A program made the translations under genes and the position numbers. 29,192 nucleotides of DNA, from assembly GCA_030620115.1 (NCBI GenBank), contig JAUXFG010000039.1:1-29192 (forward strand). The letters are read 5' to 3'. Below the pieces are notes generated by a model. That model was not told where the DNA came from. It did no database searches and was given only the letters and a program-made list of their open reading frames with translations. Below are positions 6,852 to 27,683 of this stretch, piece after piece. Position 1 is the stretch's first letter. Each line of letters starts with the position of its first letter. The DNA is from Candidatus Fermentibacterota bacterium. GTDB taxonomy: Bacteria > JAFGKV01.

Positions 6852-7034
6852 AGGATTCACACAGGGACAAGTTCACATTTTGACATCCCATCTTCACCGC
6901 ATCGATTGGCCTCGCCTCGATCGCGTAATCCTCGACGTAGCTTGAACTACGCCTCCGGTTTCGCTCCCTCGGGGAGACCAGTTCTACGGCAAATTTGTGC
7001 GCCAAGACTGCGAACTTATCCCTGTGCGAACCCT
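6852..7034 (+). repeat. 183-bp intergenic element, copy A
   Basis: This is one of three dispersed copies of exactly 183 bp in the window. By hand count it matches copy B (10725-10907) at about 156 of 183 positions with no gaps. The ends are imperfect inverted repeats: AGGATTCACACAGGGACAAG on the left and a matching GCGAACTTATCCCTGTGCGA on the right. Inside are two hairpin-forming stretches, one around CGTAG-CTTGAA-CTACG and one around CTCCC-TC-GGGGAG. It ends 29 bases upstream of the lamin-tail gene start. No transposase is encoded, so it resembles a MITE or REP-like element. Confidence 0.9.
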
Positions 7035-7400
7035 TCGTCCTACGGACTTCCGCCGCCGCTCTGCGAGTTATGGCGCGACAAGGCGCCGTGATACGAGGTC
7101 CTTTGGGCGTGGATTCCATTTTAAGACGTAAATCTCATGCACCTTGTAGTATAGCCTTCGGAATGGGTGATGTCCACTGCATGAGCTTCGCTACCCGCCT
7201 GCAGGCGGGTGGGGGGGAATGGGGGATTGGGGGGATAGGGAGAAGATAGCGTGCAGCGCTGAGCGTTCAGATGACGGAGGAAGGATGCGGGAGAGATTCT
7301 TCGCTTCCTTTGGTCGCTCAGAATGACAGGGGTGGTGCACAAATGGATGTGGTGCTGTGTGTCATTCTGAGGGAGCGGAGCGACTGGATTCCCGATACCT
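7035..7400. repeat. Repeat-rich spacer with GTCATTCTGAG inverted pair and perfect palindrome
   Basis: No gene is supported. An 18-bp perfect palindrome, ACCCGCCTGCAGGCGGGT, lies at 7193-7210 and runs straight into a G-rich tract (7209-7245) resembling the one at 112-142. Two outward-facing copies of a GTCATTCTGAG-type repeat follow: one on the minus strand at about 7292-7327 and one on the plus strand at 7361-7390. A third copy lies at 21728-21762. Repeats starting with this word and encoding phrases like CHSEGAERP in translation occur in many bacterial genomes. The stretch 7035-7192 shows nothing I recognise. Confidence 0.7.
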
Positions 7401-10667: not shown

Positions 10668-10724
10668 CTGAGAGAACCTCCTTGTGAATCAAACGAACAC
10701 TGCATGGGATCACTGCTGCGCTTG

Positions 10725-10907
10725 AGGATTCGCGCAAGAATGAGTTCACATTTTGACATCCCATCTTCACCCCATCTATTGATCTCGCCTCGATCGCGAA
10801 ATCCTCGACGTAGCTTTGGCTACGCCTCCGGTTCCGCTCCCTCGTGGAGACCAATCCTGGGGCAAATCAGTGCGCCAAGAATGCGAACTTATTCTTGCGC
10901 GAATCCT
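10725..10907 (+). repeat. 183-bp intergenic element, copy B
   Basis: Same length and orientation as copy A. The ends form an almost perfect inverted repeat: AGGATTCGCGCAAGAATGAG on the left, with GCGAACTTATTCTTGCGCGA inside the right end. The central hairpin CGTAGC-TTTG-GCTACG is perfect here. The element starts 57 bases upstream of gap. No target-site duplication of more than a base or two can be read from the flanks. Confidence 0.9.
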
Positions 10908-10997
10908 TAACGGCGCCAAACATGAGCTCTTCTTTCCTCTGACCCGAATATTCCACGAGTCGAACTCCTGATAGCTACAAGGCTTGAGAAGCTAAGC
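10908..10997. other. Spacer between element B and the 61-aa ORF
   Basis: Together with element B and 10668-10724 this forms a 330-base gap without a supported gene. I see no gene, terminator or repeat in this 90-base part. Confidence 0.5.
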
Positions 10998-15721: not shown

Positions 15722-15785
15722 TTTCTTTGCCCACCTATCCCGGAATGTGGACTCCTGCCTATTCGCTACAAATCAACCTCGAAAT

Positions 15786-16031
15786 CCGGGATGTTTCATT
15801 TTATTGTTTTCCAGTCTCGGTCCAACGCTACGGCTCAAGATTAGGAATACAGAATCCTGTAGAGAGATTCCGGAAACGCAGCCCCACCATCAGTCATTGC
15901 GAGGAGGGTGGCGACGAAGCAATCTCATCCGCCCATTGAGATCGCCACGCTGACGCTCGCGATGACCAGCACTACGCTCAGTCATTGCGAGAAGGGTTCC
16001 GAAAGTGCAAACCACCTCCCGGCCTGTCCTG
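15786..16031 (+). repeat. Dispersed repeat of about 246 bp, copy 1
   Basis: This stretch matches 21951-22197 along its length, in the same orientation, from CGGGATGTTTCATT to CCCGGCCT. A GTCATTGCGAG-type inverted unit lies inside (15893-15966), its arms GTCATTGCGAG and CTCGCGATGAC facing each other. That inner unit is of a type seen in many bacterial genomes; the surrounding arrangement is shared by both copies here. The whole 379-base spacer 15722-16100 between tRNA-Phe and the flippase holds no gene I can support. Confidence 0.8.
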
Positions 16032-21634: not shown

Positions 21635-21950
21635 TCTCAGGATTGGGGGAATGGGAGAGGGCAATCCATAAGCAACGATTTACCAGCCACACAGGTATGG
21701 TGTATGCGGAAGCACCTACTACTATATGTCATTCTGAGGGAGCAAAGCGACCGAAGAATCTGGGTGGGGAACCGGGGGCAGCGTGGGTGAAGGATAATCC
21801 CGGCCACCGAGTCCTTACATCTCTCAGGCGGAAGCCGGTCAACGTGCTTCAGGTGTCAGGTGTCAGGATGCGGAAGGAGCGTCTACGCTCGCCCAATGGC
21901 CCGGAGAGAACAATCGATCGGAATCCCGAAATCGAGGAAGATCTCCATTA
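21635..21950. repeat. Spacer with G-rich tract, GTCATTCTGAG repeat and word-like repeat
   Basis: No gene is supported. A G-rich stretch follows mazG at 21640-21660. A plus-strand GTCATTCTGAG-type repeat is at 21728-21762, a third copy of the pair seen at 7292-7390. A CAGGTGTCAGGTGTCAGGA tandem repeat is at 21850-21870. The remaining sequence holds nothing I recognise. Confidence 0.6.
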
Positions 21951-22197
21951 TCGGGGATGTTTCATTCTCTCGTTTACGATCTCGGCCTCGCGCTACGGCT
22001 CACGATAGGAATACAATATCCCGTGGAGAGATCCCGGAACCGTGGCACCACCCTCAGTCATTGCGAGGAGAGTAAGCGACGAAGCAATCTCATCCGCCCA
22101 TTGAGATCGCCGCGCTATCGCTCGCGATGACCCCCGGGGCCTCACTCATTGCAAGGAGGGTTCCGAAAGTGCAAACCACTTCCCGGCCTATCCTTGC
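21951..22197 (+). repeat. Dispersed repeat of about 247 bp, copy 2
   Basis: Second copy of the repeat at 15786-16031, same orientation and nearly the same length. Its inner inverted unit is at 22057-22131 (GTCATTGCGAG to CTCGCGATGAC). The part from TTCCGAAAGTGCAAACCAC to CCCGGCCT is also shared almost exactly. Confidence 0.8.
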
Positions 22198-22923: not shown

Positions 22924-22951
22924 AGGGTTCGCGCAGGAATAACTTCACATT
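22924..22951 (+). repeat. Solo terminus of the 183-bp element family
   Basis: AGGGTTCGCGCAGGAATAAC followed by TTCACATT matches the end of copies A-C closely, but the following sequence does not continue into the element interior. It lies 35 bases downstream of the mtgA stop codon. Confidence 0.65.
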
Positions 22952-22985
22952 ATTCCACCATTCCAATCGCGACGCGAAGTCCGTA

Positions 22986-25485: not shown

Positions 25486-27498
25486 TCATCGTCGACGTCG
25501 GGAGGGCCTTCTGAGGCGAACGCGGCCGGGAAGCTTGCCGCCTGAGATTTCCTTCAACTTGTCCCTCAGGCGGGCGGCGGTCTCAAAATCCATCCTTGAC
25601 GCCGCCTTGACCATCTCTTCCTGGAGTACCTCCACCAGTGCAGATTCCTCACCAGAGAGATCCAGATCCAACGGGAGTGCCCCCGGAGCGGCGTGAGCAA
25701 CATCGGTTGCTGCGAGAATCTCTTCCTTTGTCTTTGAGACGGAACGAGGAATGATGCCTTCTGCCTCATTGAATGCCATTTGTATCTTGCGCCGTCGATC
25801 CATTTCATTCATGGCTCTCTCCATGGAACCCGTGATGACATCGGCGTAGAGTACCACCTCGGCATTGACATTTCGTGCCGCTCGCCCCGCTGTCTGTATG
25901 AGACTCGTCTCCGAGCGAAGGAATCCTTCCCGATCAGCATCGAGTATTGCCACCAGCGACACTTCCGGCAGATCGAGCCCCTCCCTGAGCAAGTTGATGC
26001 CTACCAGCACATCGAACATCCCGAGCCGAAGATCCCGCAAAATTTCTACCCGTTCGAGGGCGTCGATCTCCGAATGCAGATAACGAATCCTGATGCTCAG
26101 ACCGGTCAAGTGCTCGGCAATATCCTCAGCAAGTCGTTTGGTGAGCGTAGTCACTAGTACCCGTTCACCCATACGAACCTTTCCCCCGATACGCTGGTAC
26201 AAGTCATCTATCTGGTGAGTTGCCGGGCGCACAATTACCACAGGATCAACCAGTCCTGTCGGCCGGATGATCTGCTGGACCACATCTCCTTGCACCATTG
26301 CGATCTCTTCTTCTGCCGGGGTAGCCGAAATAAAGATGACCTGGTCAGTCACCTCCAAGAACTCCTGGAAGGTCAGCGGCCTGTTGTCTAGTGCTGAGGG
26401 CAATCGGAAGCCGTGCTCCACCAGGGTGAGTTTTCTGCTCCGGTCACCATTCCACATGGCTTTGAGCTGCGGTATGCTTACATGGCTCTCGTCAACAATG
26501 GAGAGGAAAGGTCTCTGGAAGTAATCGAGCAGGCACGCCGGGCGTTCACCGGATTTCCGACCACTCAGGTGACGACTATAGTTCTCGATTCCTGAACAGA
26601 AGCCAGTCTCCCGGAGCATCTCAAGATCATACAAAGCCCTCGACTCAAGGCGCTGTGCCTCCAAGAGCTTGCCCTGATCTCGAAGTTCGGCAAGCCGATG
26701 GGAAAGCTCGTGTTCTATCATGCCGATGGCGTGCTCAATCTTCGGGCCCGGGGTCACAAAATGACGGGCAGGATAAATGGCAACTCGCCCAGTGGTGTCA
26801 ACCGTCCGCCCGGTAATGTGGTCCACGCGGGAGATACGTTCGATCTCAGTGTCAAAGAATTCAATCCTCAACAGGGTGCCGCCATAGGCGGGGAAAATCT
26901 CCACGACATCACCGCGGACCCTGAATGTCCCCGGGGCGAGCGCCACATCGTTTCGCGCATACTGCATGTGGACAAGCCTGTCCATCAGTTTGGTTCTATC
27001 GAGACTCGATCCCTGTTGGAGGATCAGATACATCTCTTGCCAATCGGTGGGATTGCCGAGCCCATAGATGCACGACACGCTTGCCACAACAATCACATCA
27101 TCCCGTTCCATCAGTGATGTCGTCGCTCTGAGTCGCAGTCGTTCGATTTCTTCATTGATCGAGGCATCTTTTTCAATGTATGTGTCAGTCCGCGGTATGT
27201 ATGCTTCCGGTTGGTAGTAGTCATAGTACGAGATAAAGAACTCTACGGCATTGTCGGGGAAATAGCCCTTGAGTTCCCCGTATAGCTGGGCGGCAAGCGT
27301 TTTGTTATGACTGACCAGCAAGGTGGGCAGTCCTACTCTCGCTATGGTGTTCGCCATGGTGAAAGTCTTGCCTGATCCTGTGACGCCAAGAAGAACCGAA
27401 GCTCGCTGGTTACTTGTGATGCGATGGACCAAGGCGTCGATGGCTTGCGGTTGATCTCCTGCCGGCTGGTAGGGTGCGCGAAGCGTGAAGATGGCCAC
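25486..27498 (-). CDS. uvrB: Excinuclease ABC subunit B (UvrB)
   Basis: This 670-aa DNA-damage recognition helicase acts in nucleotide excision repair with UvrA and UvrC. It shows Walker A GVTGSGKT (39-46), the beta-hairpin region YYDYYQPEAYIP, IVDESHVSIPQ (motif II), LREGLDLPE and QTAGRAARN, and a C-terminal UVR motif for UvrC contact (about 620-655). The start is GTG, fixed by an in-frame TAA immediately upstream and by the family start AxFxLxxxYQPAGDQP. No Shine-Dalgarno sequence precedes it; the 183-bp element C ends two bases before the GTG. Length is typical. Confidence 0.98.
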   Translation of the reverse strand: MAIFTLRAPYQPAGDQPQAIDALVHRITSNQRASVLLGVTGSGKTFTMANTIARVGLPTLLVSHNKTLAAQLYGELKGYFPDNAVEFFISYYDYYQPEAYIPRTDTYIEKDASINEEIERLRLRATTSLMERDDVIVVASVSCIYGLGNPTDWQEMYLILQQGSSLDRTKLMDRLVHMQYARNDVALAPGTFRVRGDVVEIFPAYGGTLLRIEFFDTEIERISRVDHITGRTVDTTGRVAIYPARHFVTPGPKIEHAIGMIEHELSHRLAELRDQGKLLEAQRLESRALYDLEMLRETGFCSGIENYSRHLSGRKSGERPACLLDYFQRPFLSIVDESHVSIPQLKAMWNGDRSRKLTLVEHGFRLPSALDNRPLTFQEFLEVTDQVIFISATPAEEEIAMVQGDVVQQIIRPTGLVDPVVIVRPATHQIDDLYQRIGGKVRMGERVLVTTLTKRLAEDIAEHLTGLSIRIRYLHSEIDALERVEILRDLRLGMFDVLVGINLLREGLDLPEVSLVAILDADREGFLRSETSLIQTAGRAARNVNAEVVLYADVITGSMERAMNEMDRRRKIQMAFNEAEGIIPRSVSKTKEEILAATDVAHAAPGALPLDLDLSGEESALVEVLQEEMVKAASRMDFETAARLRDKLKEISGGKLPGRVRLRRPSRRRR

Positions 27499-27500
27499 TT

Positions 27501-27683
27501 AGGGTTCGCGCAGGAATAAGTTCGCAGTTTTGGCGCTCATATTTGCCTTAGATTTGGTCTCCCCGAGGGAGTGAGACCGGAGGCGTAGCCAAAGCTACGT
27601 CGAGGATTTCGCGATGGAGGCGAGGCTCACAGATGGGGTGAAGATGGGATGTCAAAATGTGAAGCTATTCCCGTGCGAACCCT
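27501..27683 (-). repeat. 183-bp intergenic element, copy C (inverted)
   Basis: This copy is in the opposite orientation to A and B and again exactly 183 bp. Its ends AGGGTTCGCGCAGGAATAAG and GCTATTCCCGTGCGAACCCT form inverted repeats. The internal hairpins are CTCCC-CGA-GGGAG and CGTAGC-CAAA-GCTACG. One end supplies the last codons and stop of the rodZ-like gene; the other stops two bases short of the uvrB start codon. Thus it fills the whole gap between the two genes and probably replaces the original uvrB ribosome site. Confidence 0.9.

Follow-up and report, generated by a model that had tools for sequence, protein, structure and literature searches.

Dispersed non-coding 183-bp inverted-repeat elements in a Candidatus Fermentibacterota genome, most likely mobilised by ISAzo13-family transposases

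The window analysed here is the 29,192-nt contig JAUXFG010000039.1 (C172) of a Candidatus Fermentibacterota bacterium, one of the 296 contigs of a 4.1-Mb genome (assembly GCA_030620115.1, hereafter G000). It contains three elements of 183 bp, namely copy A at 6852–7034 and copy B at 10725–10907 on the plus strand, both with the L end first, and copy C at 27501–27683 on the minus strand, inverted and with its R end at 27501. In a self-alignment of the window, A and B were 85% identical over 184 nt without gaps, and C in inverted orientation was 85% identical to A (183 nt) and 84% to B (190 nt), which bore out the gap-free relationship proposed in a sequence-only reading of this DNA. The proposed imperfect terminal inverted repeats (TIRs) of about 30 bp were also recovered: those of A were placed by TIR pattern and end model at 6852–6882 (plus strand, L end) and 7004–7034 (minus strand, R end), and the arms of B at 10722–10752 and 10880–10910 were 31 nt long and 90% complementary. 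Both suggested internal stems, CGTAGC..GCTACG and CTCCC..GGGAG, were found. The TIR pattern had seven matches in the window, where 0.01 were expected from shuffles; six of them are the termini of the three copies and the seventh is a solitary L-type TIR (AGGGTTCGCGCAGGAATAACTTCACATTATT) at 22924–22957 on the plus strand (pattern match 22924–22946), 3' of a transglycosylase gene and with no partner end within 700 bp.

The search was extended to the whole genome, where the element had 56 BLAST matches and a 20-base TIR core had 121 matches with at most three mismatches, compared with none for the reversed pattern as a control. About 541 kb were fetched around the TIR sites, and all copy counts given below come from these sampled regions and are lower bounds. 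The TIR sequence of about 30 bp reads AGGGTTCGCGCAGRAATAA[C/G]TTC[A/G]CATTYT, and the two ends can be distinguished by their models (L, AGGGTTCGCGCAGGAATAACTTCACATTTTGACATCCC; R, AGGGTTCGCGCAGGAATAAGTTCGCATTCTTGGCGCACAG). From 157 end matches we obtained 143 distinct TIRs and 33 convergent pairs, which gives at least 33 complete elements. Equal length was a property of the three window copies and did not hold for the family, which ranges from 40 to 449 bp with 183 bp as the commonest class, represented by nine L-R copies in the sampled genome and one in a sister genome (G001). In three copies a 40-bp double TIR is all that remains, and longer members have extra palindromes towards the hairpin tip (centred on GGCATGCC, CAGCTG, GTAC or AAGCTT), which are found at other places in the genome too. 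Neither the TIR pattern nor a transposase relative was found in viral contigs.

The sequence-only reading had seen no transposase, and this is correct for the 183-bp elements themselves, which contain no transposase gene and have no coding capacity; elsewhere in the genome, however, two ISAzo13 insertion sequences bear the same TIR. Four solitary L ends were found to run on into one common non-MITE sequence, and one of the four, on contig C130, belongs to an insertion sequence of ~2.05 kb with two overlapping ORFs meeting at an A8 run. Its ORF2 matched the Pfam model DDE_Tnp_ISAZ013 (9.6e-114) and the NCBIfam model transpos_ISAzo13 (1.6e-119), and the end of its ORF1 matched the start of the latter model. 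The 3' terminus of this insertion sequence (AGGGTCCGCGCAGAAATAACTTCACATTCTTG) differs from the MITE L end at one base in 25 (24 of 25 identical), and its other end (TTAGYGAAGGCACAAAAATAAACTACC) is a diverged version that recurs at the end of contig C45, giving a close match at one end only, and fragments of the element lie at the contig ends of C259, C185, C77 and C45. The second ISAzo13 element, on C193 (~2 kb, open across an A9 run, 6.9e-118), has MITE-like TIRs at both of its ends, thereby providing the transposase gene between matching termini that the sequence-only reading had suggested looking for. Beyond the TIR, the MITE interior had no match in the C130 insertion sequence, which therefore lends no support to an origin by simple internal deletion. 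ISAzo13 relatives exist outside the phylum, the closest (61% identity) being in a Deltaproteobacteria MAG with a terminus that matches 21 of 25 TIR bases. The transposase was absent from all 20 relatives that were searched.

As a side observation, the ISAzo13 elements (L131:1195–3002 and L187:982–2705) encode the transposase in two ORFs across the A8 or A9 run, a possible programmed frameshift, and their ORF1 has about 180 residues ahead of the part that matches the model, a layout also present in a relative at L202. We also considered whether a 3.08-kb TIR pair on C78 might be an autonomous element, but rejected it: judged from translation, the long ORFs inside were glycosyltransferase-like and sliding-clamp-like, and no transposase was among them.

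The bases flanking the TIRs genome-wide read CTNA-GG...CC-TNAG, with C at position -4 in 74 of 143 flanks, T at -3 in 107 and A at -1 in 113. Since all TIR flanks taken together read C-T-N-A before the GG, the sequence identifies the target as CTNAG. Insertion was probably accompanied by a 3-bp TNA duplication, the exact length of which we infer from the flanks: such a duplication predicts agreement between positions -2 and +2, which was 0.58 against 0.35 expected (p = 0.0035). Exact 3-bp duplications were found in only 6 of 33 pairs, no clear excess over the 3.6 expected by shuffling, and exact triplets may be few because the outer flank bases have drifted or because the duplication is shorter. 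Among the insertion sequences, that on C130 has TAA on either side, and the flanks of that on C193 fit TA better than TNA. The targets CTAAG and CTGAG both contain stop codons.

The history of copy C could be read from a comparison of three genomes of the phylum, G000 and its sisters G001 and G002. In both sisters the rodZ-like gene and uvrB abut with no room for an element, the rodZ stops lie within CCCTGAGG and CTCTAAGT, and CTAAG (L215) or CTGAG (L214) stands at the place where C is inserted in G000. In the window, a target remnant CTTAG (minus strand CTAAG) is found on the plus strand at 27498–27502, the right-hand junction of C, and its TAA aligns with the sister rodZ stop. Copy C thus sits exactly at the former rodZ stop, directly upstream of uvrB; the original stop was removed, and the rodZ-like gene now stops at a codon (27665–27667, minus strand) that the L-end TIR of C supplies, its protein ending in ...AGSPKGFARE-stop. 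Because both sisters keep the rodZ-uvrB arrangement without the element and have the stop site exactly at C, copy C is, by this sequence comparison, a demonstrated insertion. The sisters likewise have a shorter gap locus, and neither their gap nor their uvrB locus has an element. Whereas in this comparison G000 had 116 TIR matches and the two transposases described above, a single element of exactly 183 bp and no transposase were found in G001, and neither was found in G002, so that the amplification of the TIR family appears to be lineage-specific.

We consider it highly probable that the 183-bp repeats are non-coding MITE copies with TIRs of ~30 bp and a CTNAG target, and that their mobility was provided in trans by a transposase of the ISAzo13 family (DDE) encoded in the same genome. 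The classification as a non-autonomous mobile element, which the sequence-only reading had put forward, agrees with the many copies, with TIRs that recur on two ISAzo13 insertion sequences, with the site of C being empty in two sisters and with the CTNAG target. By ordinary DDE transposition, as we infer it, a transposase encoded by insertion sequences with the same TIR would act on the MITE ends and insert the element into CTNAG, probably with duplication of TNA. Copy C landed exactly on the rodZ stop, and the element interior is a fold-back, the R strand of which is predicted to form one long hairpin.

An extremely unlikely alternative is that a RAYT (Y1) transposase moves the elements as REP- or BIME-like palindromes; many short palindromic modules do occur in the genome, some of them within the longer members, but the long TIRs common to DDE insertion sequences, the target consensus on both flanks and lengths well beyond those of REPs all argue against it. 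The sequence-only reading had also entertained a structured RNA/DNA regulatory element, and a rival of this kind would be a conserved RNA or DNA acting in cis on housekeeping genes that it precedes, such as gap and uvrB. All three window copies are indeed of equal length and lie just upstream of minus-strand genes, at 28 bp from the lamin-tail (LTD) gene, 57 bp from gap and 2 bp from the ORF start of uvrB. This placement did not extend to the family: by counts that rest on crude ORF calls, elements genome-wide lie at 28 gene 5' ends and 25 gene 3' ends, with the R strand in sense orientation in 29 cases and antisense in 24, and there is accordingly no positional or strand bias. In addition, neither sister genome has the element at gap or at uvrB, the insertion of C destroyed the rodZ stop, and an Rfam search of the window returned a tRNA only, with no match for the elements at the gathering score. 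We therefore regard a conserved regulatory element as very improbable; regulation as the function of the family is not supported, although individual copies may affect their neighbour genes.

A further question within the MITE reading is whether the fold of the element is itself under selection. The R strand, which is the minus strand for A and B and the plus strand for C, is predicted to fold end to end as one long hairpin. The minimum free energy for copy B was -101.6 kcal/mol (z = -11.2) on the R (minus) strand compared with -77.6 (z = -7.4) on the L (plus) strand, and the corresponding values were -99.1 and -61.2 for copy A and -94.2 and -46.2 for the copy in G001. The R strand was the better fold in 30 of 33 copies, among them that of G001. 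In the ten 183-bp copies the 74 pairs of the hairpin were kept in 93.9% of cells, and ten pairs had changed on both sides, compared with 4.8 in column shuffles, only 2 of 500 of which reached ten; the hairpin has compensatory changes. In a strand-neutral alignment of the arms, the R strand had G-U at 36 positions compared with A-C at 15 (p = 0.0046). Changes within the 183-bp class were pair-keeping in 28 cases and pair-breaking in 12 (p = 0.017), and where the interior varies the hairpin is kept, since the variants are themselves palindromes.

These observations would suit a history in which elements of MITE origin are co-transcribed from flanking genes, the R-strand RNA closes into its full-length hairpin and is thereby either processed or protected, and copies with an intact fold persist. 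The ratio over all 30 copies, however, was 47 pair-keeping to 33 pair-breaking changes and not significant (p = 0.15), and the absence of an orientation bias towards neighbour genes speaks against such retention. A TIR-wide mutation asymmetry with p = 3e-5 when counted by cells was dropped as evidence, since the distinct changes were equal (8:6 in both the L and the R ends), which attributes part of the signal to shared ancestry, and double changes can also come from gene conversion between the arms. Selection on structure, as hinted at in the sequence-only reading, is only partly supported: the covariation and the much better fold of one strand speak for it, but conversion between the arms and common descent may account for some of this signal. 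We take these data as real but modest hints of RNA-level selection on the fold, and consider the co-transcript history possible though on the unlikely side. It is rather doubtful that the fold of one strand, as RNA or as single-stranded DNA, would control spread itself, with substitutions filtered for keeping G-U pairs on the R strand, tip palindromes exchanged and the hairpin, not only the TIRs, being the selected unit.

The nearest analogue in mechanism is RUP of Streptococcus pneumoniae, a non-coding MITE of ~107 bp with about a hundred intergenic copies attributed to IS630-Spn1, an insertion sequence of its own genome with matching TIRs, from which mobilisation in trans was likewise deduced (PMC2229807). 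Like RUP, the 183-bp elements are short and non-coding and share their TIRs with an insertion sequence of their own genome. They differ in the parent family (ISAzo13 instead of IS630) and in the target (CTNAG instead of TA), and they are longer and have a strongly strand-asymmetric fold. The Correia or nemis elements of Neisseria are MITEs of 107 or 155 bp with long-hairpin transcripts and proposed RNase III processing of co-transcripts, and long-hairpin transcripts have been described for bacterial MITEs in general (PMC2229807). The 183-bp elements resemble them as short MITEs with a long hairpin, here a predicted fold, but have a different TIR and target. From the ISAzo13 family proper, including the two elements of this genome and that of the Deltaproteobacteria MAG with the common TIR, they are set apart by having no transposase gene. 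MITEAba12 of Acinetobacter and the MITEs of Coxiella are other bacterial IS-derived MITEs that belong to other IS families and hosts. In open-licence full text, one paper was found to name both ISAzo13 and MITE, and the passages retrieved from it contain no description of such a pair; ISAzo13-driven MITEs appear to be little described.

The repeats accordingly form a new family within a familiar class of elements and do not represent a new regulatory system. They account for a noticeable part of the repeats between genes in a little-known bacterium, from a phylum of which three genomes were compared here, and they provide a concrete, laboratory-testable ISAzo13-MITE pair with a target that overlaps stop codons. 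Their strand-asymmetric hairpin is also a modest starting point for asking whether selection acts on the folding of MITE RNAs.

Several other repeats were observed alongside the family. A third end type (AGGGTTCGCGCAAGAATAAGCTACATCGAGTCCCGCGTACTGCGCGGGA) occurs in about a dozen places (L093, L118, L152, L154, L157, L162, L164, L165 and others), mostly with no recognised partner end, and the short palindromic modules GGGCACGGCATGCCGTGCCC, TCCGCCAGCTGGCGGA and TCCCGCGTACTGCGCGGGA recur at the sampled G000 loci, often near TIRs and also elsewhere. The copies at L113:2998–3216 (219 bp) and L144:97–288 (192 bp) have the same flanks but differ inside, which looks like an exchange of the interior in a duplicated locus. 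In the window itself, a second dispersed repeat of ~230 bp, containing CAGTCATTGCGAGGAG...GCGACGAAGCAATCTC, was found at 15784–16030 and 21950–22194, the two copies being 76–95% identical in pieces, and a short repeat (TGTCATTCTGAGGGAGCRAAGCGACCGAAGAATCT) was found in direct and inverted copies at 7294–7328, 7355–7384 and 21722–21761.
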